Translations under genes and position numbers: made by a program
Notes under the pieces: model-generated
Seen by the model: the letters and a program-made list of their open reading frames with translations, nothing else
What the model was told of the DNA's origin: nothing
Database searches by the model: none
Shown: positions 22,140 to 29,455 of the stretch, in pieces
Position numbering within the stretch: position 1 is the first letter of the stretch
How the letters are laid out: every line of letters begins with the position of its first letter
IMG/VR virus record: IMGVR_UViG_3300004463_000226
Span: 124,001 to 188,000 of that record
Origin: a virus
Strand: one strand, 5' to 3'
Length of the DNA stretch: 64,000 bases

Positions 22140-24125
22140 ATGGAAAAAAATGTGGTAGACATTATTAATCTATTTAGTAACAATGTAATTAGTATTGAGG
22201 ACATGACAGAGACAAGGGAAATATATAATGGGTCAATAGAGAAATATTATGACTTCATTAAACAAGGATTTGAACATGTTGAATTAAGAGAATGTCCTGT
22301 TCATTTTAGATTCTTCGATAAAGAAGATCAAATGATCCATACGTTACAACTCAGACACTTTGTAACAAACTTAATGTTCTGGGAGCCAATTGTACGTATG
22401 GGTGTTTATGATGTGATAGATGAAAGCTATATCGTAGATTGTACTAAACTATCTAATCGTCTTATCAAGAATTATATTGACGAGAAGATCATTATACCTT
22501 TTAAGACAGAAGTAGAGAATGTCAAGCTAAATAAAGTAATTCATGATATGATTCACAATTTAGGTAGAATCTCTACCGATTTTAATATACTTCTAGGATT
22601 GTCAATGAACGTAGAAACATTCATTGATGTTGCTAATAAGAACGCTAGATTTAATGAAATCATCCGTACAACTATTGATGATTCAATGCAGCCAAATGAG
22701 ATTGAAAGTTATCTGGATAAACTTACTAAGGAACAGATGGGTATCTTAATGGTTGATGATAACATGCTTAAACCTATACTGAAATCTGGTACAGGTATTA
22801 AGGCTGGACAGTTTAAAGAGTTTGCTGTTAACGCAGGATTAAAACCAGATATTGATGGTAATACAATTCCTATTGCTGTAAACTCTAACTTTATCGTTGG
22901 TGGTTTGAATAACATTACCAACTACTATATCGACTCATTGGGTGGGCGTAAATCCATCATTATGAATAAAACAGTAATGGGTCGCTCAGGACACTTTGCT
23001 CGGATGGTTATGTTATTATCATCTACAGTAAGAATGAGAAAAGATGAGAAAGACTGTGGCACAGTACATTCTTCTAAGATTAATGTAAGAACAGAAGAGC
23101 ATTTGTATCGTCTAAAAGGCAGATATTATAGATTGATGCATGACCGACAGTATAGGTTATTAAAAGGAACCGAAAGACATTTGATTGGTAGAGATATATT
23201 GATTCGTACTCCAGCCAAATGTGCATCTAAAGAAATTTGTAAAACTTGCTACGGTCATCTATATTATACTAATCGTGACCTCGAATCTATTGGAGGCTTC
23301 GCTGGTGCAAAGATAACAGAGCCATTATCTCAGTCTATTCTATCTTCTAAACACTTACTTACAACACAGTCAGAGAAGATTGAGTTCAATGAAGAATTCT
23401 ATTCATTCTTCAAGCTTAATGCCAATGAGATTATGATTAACGGCGACAATGAGAATATCGAAAGATATAGCATTGTTCTTATCCGTGAAAATATTCAAAC
23501 TATTGATGAGTTTGATGAAGCAGAGTTCAACAGCTACGTTGATACATTCCATATCAAAGATAAAAAGACTGGTGACTTGATTGAGATCCAAGAAAAACAT
23601 ATCAAGGAGCTTTATATCGCACCAGATGTAAAAGAACTTATGGTTCGTCCAAAAGGAAATAAAGAGATTCTTGAGATTGATCTTTCTAAAGTCGGTGATG
23701 ATGATAGAATCTTCGTTGTCGAAATCTCTAATAACGAATTAACAAAACCACTATACAACATCATGTATCTACTTAATAACAAAAAGCGTCGTGAAGAAGC
23801 TGGAGTATTTACAATTGATGAAATGATTCAACGTATGCTAGACCTGCTGATTGAATCTAAGATTGATGCTGATTCAGTACACGGTGAGTTATTAATACGT
23901 CCATTGATTCGTAATTCTAATAACGTTCTGAAGATTCCTGATTTCAAACGTTACAATGCAAGTCGTGAGTATGAAGTATTGACTGTAGAAGGTGCATTAC
24001 AACGCCATCCATCAGTACTAATCAGCTTATCTTTCCAAGACATTGGAAGACAATTAACTAATCCACTGACGTTTAAGAAGAGAGAAACATCATTTATTGA
24101 TCCTTTCTTCCAAGAACGTCCATAG
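22140..24125 (+). CDS. RNA polymerase beta-prime, C-terminal half
   Basis: 661-residue fragment of a phage multisubunit RNA polymerase. A bridge-helix segment at about 266-292 (LGGRKSIIMNKTVMGRSGHF) matches the HGARKGLADTALKTA.SGYL region of bacterial beta-prime. All four zinc-site cysteines corresponding to E. coli C814, C888, C895 and C898 are kept (C306, C361, C367, C370). The trigger loop at about 385-410 (GGFAGAKITEPLSQSI...KHLL) keeps the catalytic-site histidine but replaces M932 and R933 of E. coli. The metal-binding NADFDGD motif is absent, so another gene, outside the window, must encode the N-terminal half. This split is known for phiKZ and AR9 virion and non-virion polymerases. 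Confidence 0.9.
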   Translation: MEKNVVDIINLFSNNVISIEDMTETREIYNGSIEKYYDFIKQGFEHVELRECPVHFRFFDKEDQMIHTLQLRHFVTNLMFWEPIVRMGVYDVIDESYIVDCTKLSNRLIKNYIDEKIIIPFKTEVENVKLNKVIHDMIHNLGRISTDFNILLGLSMNVETFIDVANKNARFNEIIRTTIDDSMQPNEIESYLDKLTKEQMGILMVDDNMLKPILKSGTGIKAGQFKEFAVNAGLKPDIDGNTIPIAVNSNFIVGGLNNITNYYIDSLGGRKSIIMNKTVMGRSGHFARMVMLLSSTVRMRKDEKDCGTVHSSKINVRTEEHLYRLKGRYYRLMHDRQYRLLKGTERHLIGRDILIRTPAKCASKEICKTCYGHLYYTNRDLESIGGFAGAKITEPLSQSILSSKHLLTTQSEKIEFNEEFYSFFKLNANEIMINGDNENIERYSIVLIRENIQTIDEFDEAEFNSYVDTFHIKDKKTGDLIEIQEKHIKELYIAPDVKELMVRPKGNKEILEIDLSKVGDDDRIFVVEISNNELTKPLYNIMYLLNNKKRREEAGVFTIDEMIQRMLDLLIESKIDADSVHGELLIRPLIRNSNNVLKIPDFKRYNASREYEVLTVEGALQRHPSVLISLSFQDIGRQLTNPLTFKKRETSFIDPFFQERP

Positions 24126-24134
24126 GAGGATTAT

Positions 24135-24590
24135 ATGATACAGACAACATTTACCTATTATAATCATGAACCTGAAATTGAATTAGGTAGGGGTTTTAAA
24201 ACCCCTACCGTGTATCCAAGTGATAATGTAGGGGAATTAGTTCTATCATTGGATTATGAAGTAATTCAATACATATATCATTATAGACCATGGAATAGAA
24301 CAGAAACACCTAAACAAGAATTCATAGATAAAATAGTTTCTTTAGCGGGGACTGAACATGTAAACTATTTGGTGCTAAATGAACTCTTTAATCAAAAAGT
24401 GTATTTCGATTTAAGGTTTATGGAAGAACCCGAGACTGACATTCATATGTCATATACAGAAATAATGCCTTATGGTGACGATTTACAATGTATTATCAAA
24501 CATCCTTACACAATTAAATTAAGAGCAAAGGTCACTTCTATCAAATTACCAGAGGAGAATAAAAAATGCCAATCAACTTGGAAATTATAG
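24135..24590 (+). CDS. Hypothetical protein with an internal palindrome in its gene
   Basis: 151 residues, unknown family, nine bases after the beta-prime gene with AGGAGG before its ATG. Its early codons contain a 24-bp perfect palindrome (24186-24209). The 3' end overlaps the start of a small membrane-protein gene in another frame. Co-transcribed with the RNA polymerase subunit, but no sequence link to transcription is seen. Confidence 0.65.
   Translation: MIQTTFTYYNHEPEIELGRGFKTPTVYPSDNVGELVLSLDYEVIQYIYHYRPWNRTETPKQEFIDKIVSLAGTEHVNYLVLNELFNQKVYFDLRFMEEPETDIHMSYTEIMPYGDDLQCIIKHPYTIKLRAKVTSIKLPEENKKCQSTWKL
24186..24209. repeat. 24-bp perfect palindrome inside a coding region
   Basis: GGTAGGGGTTTT followed at once by its exact complement. 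The RNA could form a stem with a TTTTAAAA centre, and the DNA could be a dimeric protein-binding site. Confidence 0.8.
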
Positions 24591-24739
24591 CATCATCTAT
24601 TGCACTATTATGTGCTATCGGTTCACTTACATTTGGGATACTTACTGTACTGAGTGCTAGAAGATTTAAAAAACAACAAGATGAAGCAAATGCTGAATTA
24701 GATAAGAGACTTGCTGAGATCGAAAAAGGAGGAAAATAA
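24566..24739 (+). CDS. Small single-pass membrane protein
   Basis: 57 residues: a short polar start, a membrane segment at about 6-29 (IIASSIALLCAIGSLTFGIL), then a charged, helical cytoplasmic tail (KKQQDEANAELDKRLAEIEKGG). GAGGAG lies nine bases before the ATG. It overlaps the upstream gene by 25 bases in another frame and its tail contains the ribosome site of the next gene. Such short membrane proteins with a coiled tail are common near lysis, superinfection-exclusion and anti-defence genes, but its role is not decided by sequence. Confidence 0.6.
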   Translation: MPINLEIIASSIALLCAIGSLTFGILTVLSARRFKKQQDEANAELDKRLAEIEKGGK

Positions 24740-24740
24740 A

Positions 24741-25037
24741 ATGGAAGAAGTAAAAGATCTTAAAAGTGTTGTTGGTAACCATGCGGGAATACCTTTTACG
24801 GATGAAGACAGTGATTCAATGCAGAAATCAATGAAGTTTTTAATAGATTTATTAAAGGAAGATGATGTAACAGGAGCTCTTAAGGATATTGAAGCAAAGA
24901 AACCAGTATCTATGCAAAAAATTATACGAGATGAATTAGTATTATGGATTGATTGTAATGACGCTGAGGAGGTTTCAAAGAAGATAGCTAATAACTTGAG
25001 ATCTCTATTTATAGGAGGAACTAAGTATGAAGACTGA
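24741..25037 (+). CDS. Hypothetical acidic helical protein
   Basis: 98 residues starting MEEVKDLKSVVG, ten bases after AAAGGAGG. Mostly helical. It overlaps the next gene by 11 bases. Part of the small-gene cluster between RNA polymerase beta-prime and the Acb2/Tad1 gene. Function unknown. Confidence 0.6.
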   Translation: MEEVKDLKSVVGNHAGIPFTDEDSDSMQKSMKFLIDLLKEDDVTGALKDIEAKKPVSMQKIIRDELVLWIDCNDAEEVSKKIANNLRSLFIGGTKYED

Positions 25038-25311
25038 CACATTAATTGAGATAAATAATTCTCGATTACTAAAACATGTAGCTGATGAGATAAGAGCAAT
25101 ACCTGAAATTAAACCACTTTCTGAAGAAGACCAAGCAAGAAAATTTCTTGAAACCGTGCGTCAAAATCTGTGTATGTCTCTAAGCGTTCCTGTTGAAATA
25201 CTTAATGAATGTTTTGAAGGTAGTAAAGCTCAAGCTACATTTAAAATGGCTGCTACAAAAGAGGCTTTAGAAATGTTTCCAGATGCTGAAATAGATACAA
25301 ATAAAAAATAA
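25027..25311 (+). CDS. Hypothetical helical protein
   Basis: 94 residues, helical, no motif. ATAGGAGG precedes the ATG and the gene overlaps its neighbour's end, so it is co-translated with it. Function unknown. Confidence 0.6.
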   Translation: MKTDTLIEINNSRLLKHVADEIRAIPEIKPLSEEDQARKFLETVRQNLCMSLSVPVEILNECFEGSKAQATFKMAATKEALEMFPDAEIDTNKK

Positions 25312-25358
25312 TTAATGTTGTAACATCATATTGAAACCATTTGAGAGGGGAAACTAAG

Positions 25359-25709
25359 ATGAGAGAGAACGTAGAATCTATTAAAACATCTGAACACACA
25401 TTTATTACACATGAGGCTGAAGTTAAATTTAATGCGCCGCATCATTTTGTTGTACATGATAAAGGTGGACAGATCCTGAGTCTGGTAAATTTTCAATTAG
25501 GACCTATCAAGGAAGCTGGTGTTAACGGCGTTACAAATGAAGATTTACTTCACATGGTTAGATTGCGCCTAGAAGGATTCCAGGCTAGTGAATTTAAATG
25601 CGATGAAAATCAACAGGCATTAGATCATATCATTGCTGCTATTGCATCTTTAGAATCACGTACAAAGAAGCGTCTTGAGCGCGGCGTTGAAGGAACACAT
25701 ACTGTTTAA
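25359..25709 (+). CDS. Acb2/Tad1-family cyclic nucleotide sponge (anti-CBASS or anti-Thoeris)
   Basis: 116 residues. The C-terminal two thirds carry the family pattern: FQLGPIKEAGVNGVTNEDLL near residue 45, F..S.F.C.EN..AL in the middle, then a helix ending in RGVEGTHTV. That ending is the hallmark of Acb2 (T4 Vs.4) and of the Acb2/Tad1 hairpin family, once misnamed ABC ATPase. Acb2 binds cyclic di- and trinucleotides and so blocks CBASS; Tad1 binds gcADPR and blocks Thoeris. Which ligand applies here cannot be told by eye; the extra 30 residues at the start look more like Tad1. The start at 25359 follows GAGAGGGG. Located among small genes in an accessory cluster, as expected of a counter-defence gene. 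Confidence 0.85.
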   Translation: MRENVESIKTSEHTFITHEAEVKFNAPHHFVVHDKGGQILSLVNFQLGPIKEAGVNGVTNEDLLHMVRLRLEGFQASEFKCDENQQALDHIIAAIASLESRTKKRLERGVEGTHTV

Positions 25710-25725
25710 ATAAGCTACATATGAG

Positions 25726-25753
25726 GCAAGGGTAAATTTACCCTTGCTTTATT
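25726..25753 (+). terminator. Terminator after the Acb2/Tad1 gene
   Basis: GCAAGGG...CCCTTGC hairpin, part of a 22-bp palindrome (25726-25747), followed by TTTATTATT. Confidence 0.75.
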
Positions 25754-25784
25754 ATTAAAATATTCTATTAGGGAGAGAAACCAA

Positions 25785-26330
25785 ATGGCAAATACAATTC
25801 CAATTCATTTTACATCAGAGTCTTTCAAGCAGTTAACACATTATCTGTTTGATGAAATTAAAACTATAAATAAACAAATAAACGATTATAATATGGCATT
25901 GTCTTCTAAGGCTGTTGCTGGCGACAGACAGGCTGGATTAGATGCATTACAAAACATTTCACTTCTTGGTTTAAAGGTCGGTAAGTTATCTATATGCCTT
26001 TATTCTCTTGAGGTAGCCAATGGACGGATGAAGCCATCTAGTTTAGAAAAACCCTATAATCTACATATTGAGGTAGAGAATGCTATTCTCATCAGGGAAT
26101 GCTTGACGGAGGCATTAGTTGAAATATCCAATAATCTTAACAGCTCTATGTTCATAGTACAATCAGCAGTACAGCTAAACACAACACAAGAACAATCAAC
26201 AACTAAGTATATTGATGAAATTCGTGTGGCTAGTGCTGAGTTGAGTAAATTCAGCGATCTCCTTAGTCGAGTTGAAACTGGATTAGTAAATTATGCAAGA
26301 CAAGTTAGTGTAGGATTAATTAAGGAATAA
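25785..26330 (+). CDS. Hypothetical helical protein
   Basis: 181 residues, helical throughout, flanked by two terminators and so a single-gene unit. AGGGAGAG precedes the ATG. It may be distantly related to the two tandem proteins downstream, but I cannot show it. Function unknown. Confidence 0.65.
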   Translation: MANTIPIHFTSESFKQLTHYLFDEIKTINKQINDYNMALSSKAVAGDRQAGLDALQNISLLGLKVGKLSICLYSLEVANGRMKPSSLEKPYNLHIEVENAILIRECLTEALVEISNNLNSSMFIVQSAVQLNTTQEQSTTKYIDEIRVASAELSKFSDLLSRVETGLVNYARQVSVGLIKE

Positions 26331-26358
26331 GAGAGTTCACACTCTCTTATTCTTTTTT
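26326..26358 (+). terminator. Terminator
   Basis: An 11-bp stem (26326-26336 with 26341-26351), TCAC loop, then CTTTTTT. Confidence 0.85.
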
Positions 26359-26386
26359 ATAACGCAAAATTAGGAGGAAAAAAATA

Positions 26387-26914
26387 ATGGAGTATTCAAT
26401 CAGTATCGATAGGGGTTTAGATTATGTGTTACGTATGATTTTTAATAAAGTTAAAAGGGAGAATGAAGATACTGTTAAGATTTTAGAGTATTTCAATTAT
26501 GCCAAAGAGGAATTCACTAGGATAACAACAAATGATCCTTTTAGATCAGAGAAAAGAATCATTCTCACTATGGATGAAAAACTGATAAATATTTTAATAG
26601 AATACATTGATATGGAGATTGCTATGTGGTCTTCTTGGGAAAAAGACAACAATCAATATTTAGATGACTATATTACAGAGTATACTGAGGTATATAAACA
26701 AGCGCTTGTTGCAAAAATACCTAAAGCAGATGAATATATAAAATTAGATAAAGGTCGTATCTATGAGTTACTAGACTCTATTGATCATAATGCTGAAATA
26801 GTATTTGATTATAAGCAACTTCGTGCAGCATTAGCAGGAGATGATATGTTATTTGTACATGTAGAGTTGAGTATGGAACATCATAGGTACTATACAATAG
26901 TTGATGAGTATTGA
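26387..26914 (+). CDS. Hypothetical protein, first of a tandem pair
   Basis: 175 residues, helical and acidic. Its last about 55 residues (YIKLDKGRIYELLD... then LFVHVELSMEHHRYY) match the end of the next protein (YIKIDRDYVVLGLM... then LFVDVEISWKDHHLF). AGGAGG precedes the ATG. Function unknown; the duplication suggests accessory genes under diversifying pressure. Confidence 0.65.
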   Translation: MEYSISIDRGLDYVLRMIFNKVKRENEDTVKILEYFNYAKEEFTRITTNDPFRSEKRIILTMDEKLINILIEYIDMEIAMWSSWEKDNNQYLDDYITEYTEVYKQALVAKIPKADEYIKLDKGRIYELLDSIDHNAEIVFDYKQLRAALAGDDMLFVHVELSMEHHRYYTIVDEY

Positions 26915-26928
26915 TTGGAGGAATATAG

Positions 26929-27459
26929 ATGCCTAAAAAATTTAAATTAAACTTCTCATTACTTGATGCGGTTTCAGATATAGTGGAATCATTAAATAGT
27001 TTAATCAATGATGATAGTAGTATAGTAAATAAATATCTAAAAGATCTTGATGATAAAATAAGTGCATTTTTTGATAACCCTGATAAAACAGTGTATTTTG
27101 ATAAGGATGGAATGGATGTTGAAATAGATAATGATACTATATATGGAATCCTTTGTGCTATAGAAACAGATATTGGAGAACTACAAGAAACGATTGAAGC
27201 AATAGGAGATGATTTAAAGGAATATATAAAAAGACGTGATACTATAATAACCAAATTAGAAGGACAAAATATACCTAATTACCAGGATTATATTAAAATA
27301 GATAGGGACTATGTAGTTCTGGGATTGATGGATATAGTTGATTTCCAAAGAGAAATATTCCACTTAAAAGCCCTTCGTAACACTTTAACAGAAGGCGGAT
27401 CTTTATTTGTTGATGTAGAGATATCTTGGAAAGATCATCATTTATTCACAGACATGTAG
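26929..27459 (+). CDS. Hypothetical protein, second of a tandem pair
   Basis: 176 residues, helical with a long coiled-coil-like middle, same fold plan as the preceding gene and a conserved C-terminal strand FVDVEISWKDHH. TTGGAGG precedes the ATG. The transcript ends at the terminator that overlaps its stop. Confidence 0.65.
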   Translation: MPKKFKLNFSLLDAVSDIVESLNSLINDDSSIVNKYLKDLDDKISAFFDNPDKTVYFDKDGMDVEIDNDTIYGILCAIETDIGELQETIEAIGDDLKEYIKRRDTIITKLEGQNIPNYQDYIKIDRDYVVLGLMDIVDFQREIFHLKALRNTLTEGGSLFVDVEISWKDHHLFTDM

Positions 27460-27489
27460 AGAACCTTCAGGTTCTCTATTTTTTTATTT
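27457..27489 (+). terminator. Terminator
   Basis: A 9-bp stem (27457-27465 with 27470-27478), TTCA loop, then a T-rich tract of about ten bases. Confidence 0.85.
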
Positions 27490-27527
27490 TGGAATCAACT
27501 TTATAATAATGAAAGGGTGGAGGTCAT

Positions 27528-27992
27528 ATGACTAAAAATTTAGCAATTGGAAATAAAACAGGTATGATTAAACATCATCATTTAGATGGATTTGAGTTAT
27601 TTACTACATTTGATTTTGAGGACAATTTACTAGTTATAACGGTATCAAATAAATCAGTAAGAGAAAATGAATTGTTTGTAGAAAAAAACAGTAGACGTGG
27701 ATTCCAGCTTACTGATATTGATAGATTAAGAGATATAACATTTAAGCTCGTTAATGCTACTGATAGTAAAATGTATTTATTTTCACCAGTAGATCCTCAT
27801 GGATTTTGTGCTCGTCATGACTATATACAGTTAGATATATCAGATAAAGCCTACATGTTCCACGGACTACTAGGTCTATATGAACCAATAGAAGAAGGCT
27901 CATATGTTATGTTTAATCTAGATTCTATAACATCAAAAAGTTTATTTAATATAGCTATGCATAGATTTATTGAGGATAAGTTTGGATCATGA
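27528..27992 (+). CDS. Hypothetical protein upstream of the helicase
   Basis: 154 residues, probably globular alpha/beta, no motif recognised. GGGTGGAGG lies five bases before the ATG. It is 11 bases upstream of the SF2 helicase gene and probably shares its transcript, so a role with the helicase is possible. Confidence 0.65.
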   Translation: MTKNLAIGNKTGMIKHHHLDGFELFTTFDFEDNLLVITVSNKSVRENELFVEKNSRRGFQLTDIDRLRDITFKLVNATDSKMYLFSPVDPHGFCARHDYIQLDISDKAYMFHGLLGLYEPIEEGSYVMFNLDSITSKSLFNIAMHRFIEDKFGS

Positions 27993-28003: not shown

Positions 28004-29455
28004 ATGACAAAAGATGTAATTAATGTTAAACATTCATCAATCGTAATACCTAATTATAATCTAGGTGATTGTGAGAAACTTGAGAATATGCTGTCAGTAT
28101 GGGATGATATTTATTATAAAATGGATAATATAGGATTCCATTACAATGAAGAAAAAAGAGAATTACTTTTGCCTAGAGGATTAGAATTAGGGCATTTAGA
28201 AAGTTATTTTAGAAGACCTTTACAATTTGATCGTAATGCTGACGAATCTGATCCAGCATCATATAAGTTAAAGGTTGAACCTAGAAGCGATATACAAAGA
28301 AAATCAATCTCATTTTTATTAGGCGAGGGTGATTTCGCTTATACTAAACAACACACCCAATTGACTTTAAACCTTGATACAGGTGACGGTAAGACGTACT
28401 GTGTCATTGCTGCTTTAACCTTTATGAGAACAAAATCAATGATTATTTCCCATACAGATAATATTAAGAATCAGTGGAAAGAATCAATAATAAAGATGAC
28501 TAATATTGATGAAAAGTTTATCTTTAACATTGATGGAAGTTCCACTATAAAGAAGTTAATGAAGTTAGAGAAACTTCCATATAAGATTTATTTAGTAAAT
28601 CATGGAACGATTCGTAGCTATGGTAAGAAACATGGTTGGGATAAAGTAACTGAGTTATTCAAGAAATTAAGAATAGGTGTTAAAGTATTTGATGAAGCAC
28701 ATCTGGAATTTGAGAATCTAATGAAAACGGATCTTCATACAAATACAAAGAAAACTATTTATCTTACAGCCAACTTTGAACGTTCTGAGCATAAACAGAA
28801 TCGTGTATTTAATCTTTGCTTTAAGAATATAGCTAAATATGGCGTAGAGACAAAGAAAGAGAAACGTAAACATATTGTCTACGTTCCTGTATTCTTTGAC
28901 TCAAAACCTACATTAGAAGATAGAGCTAATATGAGGGGAAGAAAGGGTTGGTTCGATAAGAATAAGTATAGTGATTATCTAATAGGTAAACAAATATTCT
29001 TTGATGTCCTTAAGTGGTTGGTTGACTTCTTTAACGATAAAGAAGGAAGAATGTTAATCATGGTATCTAAGATAAATGCTACTGAAGCCGTCCGTGATTA
29101 CCTAACTCATGTTATAGATAATAAAACTATAGGAGTATATAATTCACAAGTAAGCGATGAAGTTAAATCCAAAGTACTACATATGGATATTATCTCATCT
29201 ACTCCTAAGTCAATGGGAACTGGTACAGATATTCCTAAACTTAGATTCTCTATTAACGCTGAACCATATACATCATCTATATCAGCTAATCAATTCTCTG
29301 GTCGCTTAAGGGAATATGGTGAAGATGAATTCACATTCTATTTAGAATTAATAGATAGAGGATTTCCTGATGTTGTCAATATGTATAAGAAACGTTTTCC
29401 TAAATTTAAAAAGAAGTGTCATAGTATTAAAGAATTGACTTATAAGGCGGAATGA
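28004..29455 (+). CDS. Superfamily 2 DEAH-box helicase (UvsW-like)
   Basis: 483-residue ATP-dependent helicase. Motif I is LDTGDGKT (124-131), motif II the DEAH box at 230-233, motif III reads LTAN instead of the usual TAT, and motif VI reads QFSGRLRE where most SF2 enzymes have QxxGRxxR, so the last arginine is replaced. The N-terminal about 90 residues are a separate small domain, as in T4 UvsW. Enzymes of this type unwind recombination intermediates and stalled forks. The changed motif VI may mean modified ATP coupling. It overlaps the next gene by ATGA. Confidence 0.8.
   Translation: MTKDVINVKHSSIVIPNYNLGDCEKLENMLSVWDDIYYKMDNIGFHYNEEKRELLLPRGLELGHLESYFRRPLQFDRNADESDPASYKLKVEPRSDIQRKSISFLLGEGDFAYTKQHTQLTLNLDTGDGKTYCVIAALTFMRTKSMIISHTDNIKNQWKESIIKMTNIDEKFIFNIDGSSTIKKLMKLEKLPYKIYLVNHGTIRSYGKKHGWDKVTELFKKLRIGVKVFDEAHLEFENLMKTDLHTNTKKTIYLTANFERSEHKQNRVFNLCFKNIAKYGVETKKEKRKHIVYVPVFFDSKPTLEDRANMRGRKGWFDKNKYSDYLIGKQIFFDVLKWLVDFFNDKEGRMLIMVSKINATEAVRDYLTHVIDNKTIGVYNSQVSDEVKSKVLHMDIISSTPKSMGTGTDIPKLRFSINAEPYTSSISANQFSGRLREYGEDEFTFYLELIDRGFPDVVNMYKKRFPKFKKKCHSIKELTYKAE

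Follow-up and report, generated by a model that had tools for sequence, protein, structure and literature searches.

The window analysed here, a 64-kb stretch of a 234-kb virus record, carries a short gene lying between genes for an RNA polymerase subunit and a helicase. Which protein does this gene encode, and how might it serve the phage during infection? An earlier note had assigned the ORF at 25359-25709, with its motifs NGVTNEDLL and RGVEGTHTV, to a signal sponge of the Acb2/Tad1 hairpin family located in an accessory cluster. The ORF and both motifs are present, and the family assignment is upheld and can be narrowed to Tad1 (Thoeris anti-defence 1). The accessory cluster was also rightly recognized, as the locus is variable and lies between conserved RNA polymerase and helicase genes. 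The following features were identified:

22140..24125, + strand: beta'-like subunit of a phage RNA polymerase, conserved gene at the left border (phrog_3015, E 5e-63; AR9 g154, non-virion RNA polymerase beta', 32%)
24135-24590, 24566-24739, 24741-25037, and 25027-25311, + strand: small genes upstream of tad1, no convincing family match
25343..25351 (approximate), + strand: ribosome-binding site of tad1, GAGAGGGGAAACTAAG-ATG, read directly
25359..25709, + strand: tad1, 116 aa, read as a full-length Tad1 sponge protein
25724..25757, + strand: putative terminator just 3' of tad1, stem CAAGGGTAAATTTACCCTTG, then a T-rich tail
25785-26330, 26387-26914, 26929-27459, and 27528-27992, + strand: small genes downstream of tad1, spanning 25785..27992
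28004..29455, + strand: superfamily II helicase, right conserved border (PF00270/PF04851; AR9 orthologue, 34%)

The tad1 ORF starts with an ATG at 25359 and ends with a TAA stop at 25709, and the sequence GAGAGGGG lies approximately 8 nt 5' of this ATG. An in-frame TTG is located upstream at 25341, where a ribosome-binding site is not evident. The start of the encoded protein corresponds to that of Tad1 in phage SBSphiJ7 (MREL.../MREN...). The terminator was read directly and is absent from the consensus scan list, and is thus tentative.

Sequence searches relate the window protein to Tad1 well beyond chance similarity of the motifs. It shares 43.6% amino acid identity over 98% of its length with the SBSphiJ7 protein annotated as Tad1 in OM982674 (tblastn, E 1e-23). 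A total of 150 phage records contain a tblastn match; the closest are in herelleviruses of Bacillus and phages like them (48-55% identity) and in Lactococcus phages. The protein also matches CmTad1 (8kbb; phmmer, E 8e-22), CbTad1 (7uav; phmmer, E 1e-10), and phrog_2428 in PHROGs (E 5.6e-35), and the family profile matches the same two solved structures with E-values of 1e-52 and 2e-26, respectively. In a sequence search of the PDB, significant matches were restricted to Tad1 structures and phiKZ gp184. No match was found in the Pfam, NCBIfam, and PADLOC scans, so that the protein is detected only by PHROGs and by direct comparison with Tad1. Twelve residues are invariant in a 29-row alignment, namely Q46, G48, N84, R101, T102, R105, and, within the two motifs, N56, G57, E61, E111, G112, and T113, and all of them are retained in the window protein. 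A scan of genomes with the single protein found one MAG, Clostridia RGIG7175. No second Tad1/Acb2 copy was found in the 234-kb record with the alignment profile, while PF24729, the Pfam hairpin model, missed even the known copy.

To compare the protein with known structures, as the earlier note had proposed, an AlphaFold2 monomer model was built from 27 related sequences, drawn only from the window and viral contigs (pLDDT 85, pTM 0.75). The model contains beta strands at residues 14-18, 29-34, and 39-45, followed by long helices at 60-75 and 82-108. The protein is thus predicted to have the Tad1 architecture, in which an antiparallel beta-sheet at the N-terminus precedes a pair of long helices at the C-terminus. 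Foldseek yielded 20 matches with E<=0.001, each of them to CmTad1 or CbTad1. VIA-align superimposed the model on CmTad1 over 116 residues (1-116; Z 13.5, rmsd 2.0 A) and on CbTad1 with gcADPR over 115 residues (Z 12.7, rmsd 2.5), again covering residues 1-116, and the first unrelated chain followed at Z ~7. The N-terminal 30 residues, previously described as extra, correspond to the standard beta-sheet domain of Tad1.

These results bear on whether the protein could instead be Acb2, a sponge acting only against CBASS, with an unrelated N-terminal extension. The hairpin domain is common to Acb2 and Tad1 by Pfam definition, and the title of PF24729 includes both names. Of the 29 aligned proteins, 20 are matched by this model, but the window protein is missed at E<=1. 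However, homology and the fold match extend through the N-terminal beta-sheet domain (CmTad1 and CbTad1 are aligned over residues 1-116), which Acb2 does not have, and the KFNAPHHF motif of the N-terminal half is kept across most of the family in the 29-row alignment. Where the model has its three strands, Acb2 has a short N-terminal helix (PMC12043709). Among the fold matches listed there are no Acb2 chains, an absence that carries no weight. We regard the Acb2 reading as extremely improbable. The homology, the full-length fold match, and the retained family-invariant residues assign the protein to Tad1, and we place the probability that 25359-25709 encodes a canonical Tad1 at roughly 0.93.

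Among solved structures, CmTad1 (8kbb, 8kbc, 8kbd) is the closest, sharing 42-43% identity with the window protein. The CmTad1 structures were solved with cAAA and cAAG. CbTad1 (7uav, 7uaw, 8smd, 8kbe, 8kbf), which comes from a Clostridium botulinum prophage, has the same full-length fold but is more distant in sequence (31-32% identity). Residues F82, N92, R109, and R113 of CbTad1, which the 2022 structure paper reportedly places in the gcADPR pocket, align to the conserved F74, N84, R101, and R105 of the window protein, with the CbTad1 numbering inferred.

Tad1 forms a hexamer from dimers, with gcADPR or cyclic dinucleotides in pockets at the dimer interfaces, and two separate sites at trimer interfaces hold cyclic trinucleotides (PMC12043709, PMC10022894). 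Binding of these signals, at sites that are independent of each other, keeps the Thoeris and CBASS effectors off (PMC12043709, PMC10022894). By analogy, the window Tad1 would most likely assemble as a hexamer of three dimers, as solved Tad1 proteins do. During infection, this oligomer would soak up cADPR isomers and cyclic oligonucleotides but leave them intact; with the signals sequestered, the Thoeris and CBASS effectors would stay inactive and the infection would not be aborted by the cell. We infer the oligomer, the ligands, and the anti-defence effect from characterised relatives, which support them well.

The virus record further carries genes for a prohead protease and for a family B DNA polymerase that is divergent. 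Its RNA polymerase gene is of the multi-subunit type, and the subunit is nearest to those of Bacillus phages BpSp, PBS1, and AR9, with 31-32% identity. The virus is read as a giant (jumbo) phage, a distant relative of Bacillus phages AR9/PBS1. Because the RNA polymerase subunit is nearest to those of Bacillus phages, a Gram-positive host is likely. Such a host had been considered of interest, as most studied Acb2 are from Gram-negative phages, but Tad1 was first discovered in a Bacillus phage, and SBSphiJ7 Tad1 is the founding member of the family. Like the window protein, the SBSphiJ7 protein is full length, with the same start and both halves conserved; unlike it, the SBSphiJ7 protein has approximately 25 extra residues that separate the hairpin from the N-terminal strands. 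SBSphiJ7 is a herellevirus, whereas the window virus is an RNA-polymerase jumbo phage. No Tad1 match was found in AR9, BpSp, Machias, LPJP1, and phiR1-37.

A jumbo phage with Tad1 is already known in phiKZ (PMC13282480). Like the window protein, phiKZ gp184 has a Tad1-type C-terminal region and comes from a jumbo phage that encodes RNA polymerases of its own; it differs in being virion-associated and in its Gram-negative host. This likeness raises the question of whether the window protein is itself a particle-borne virion protein for which the sponge role is secondary. gp184 is annotated as structural and is present in the solved structure 8y6v, homologues in Lactococcus phages 1706 and P59 are annotated as 'structural protein', and phiKZ Tad1 is injected (PMC13282480). 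However, the long N-terminal extension of gp184 (~115 residues) is missing from the window protein (116 vs 230 aa), and packaging in the virion would be compatible with sponge function. In a phylogenetic tree of 31 Tad1 proteins, moreover, jumbo-phage proteins of the phiKZ type are set apart, together with a cyclophilin fusion from phage FLC9, in a well-supported clade (97/94), and the window Tad1 falls outside it, at a position that the tree does not resolve. A primarily virion role thus appears highly unlikely, and the Tad1 sponge remains the preferred reading. The tree fits, but does not prove, an acquisition of the window Tad1 separate from that of the phiKZ-type. A more specific scenario, in which the AR9/PBS1-related lineage took Tad1 from the Firmicutes-phage pool, independently of the phiKZ-type, and its ligand preference shifted to a different host signal, seems rather unlikely.

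Some homologues have unusual architectures. In Burkholderia phage FLC9, the single annotated frame of gp131 (LC667451.1, L045:2326-3339) combines a peptidyl-prolyl isomerase domain of the cyclophilin type (PF00160, E 2.5e-44) with a Tad1 region at the C-terminus. To our knowledge, a cyclophilin-Tad1 fusion has not been described. Tad1 homologues with an N-terminal extension of 50-90 residues occur at loci L008, L010, L011, L015-L018, L020, and L021; in the aligned L008, L011, L017, L018, and L020, the extension is a low-complexity tail rich in Lys, Ala, and Pro.

The interval between the RNA polymerase and helicase genes contains approximately nine small genes, including tad1, in the window and one gene in AR9. 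The four upstream genes (24135..25311) are on the same strand as tad1 and tightly spaced, and a ribosome-binding site precedes each of them. Most neighbours of tad1 match nothing in four profile libraries (Pfam, PHROGs, NCBIfam, and PADLOC), and none could be placed in a known defence or anti-defence family; no match was considered to exceed chance (best E ~0.001-0.05, with low scores). The earlier suggestion of adjoining anti-defence genes thus finds no support in these libraries. Weak matches, such as 'AGO_N' and 'HamA', are below the cut-offs and were rejected. The adjacent genes 26387-26914 and 26929-27459 are paralogous, their products sharing 34% identity in the C-terminal 80 residues (E 2e-7), and no convincing relative of either was found in the libraries searched. 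No near DNA match to the tad1 region was found in phage records, and relatives of the other small genes in the interval are absent from the fetched loci.

A syntenic relative, represented by contigs L012 and L014, shares 57-69% identity with the window virus in most shared core genes, and its tad1 also lies between the RNA polymerase and helicase genes. The window's neighbours are replaced there by a QueC-like gene, a small gene with a match to a zinc-finger-like family, and a radical-SAM gene. The tad1 locus is thus a variable cluster, in which tad1 is the sole gene common to the two relatives. The QueC-like and radical-SAM genes that replace the window's small genes (L012:6527-9517) may point to 7-deazaguanine-type metabolism. 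At L012:7956-8328, and in the same stretch of L014, tad1 is frameshifted into a 57-aa N-terminal piece and an 84-aa hairpin piece, identically in both contigs. Given this disrupted copy in the closest relative by synteny, the phage may be able to do without tad1 in some hosts. The frameshift, together with the long branch of the window protein (P0001) in the tree (0.86), could suggest that the window Tad1 is also decaying or repurposed and has lost signal binding. Its frame is intact, however, with 12/12 family-invariant residues and a good ribosome-binding site, and loss of binding is very doubtful for the window protein, which we continue to read as a canonical Tad1.

Overall, the finding is an ordinary one, as it concerns a known family in a type of phage where Tad1 was already known and probably in the type of host where it was discovered, and the mechanism of the family had already been worked out. 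The finding extends the known range of Tad1 by a jumbo-phage lineage and identifies a variable locus, bounded by the RNA polymerase subunit and helicase genes, whose accessory genes differ between relatives and may include more genes for counter-defence.
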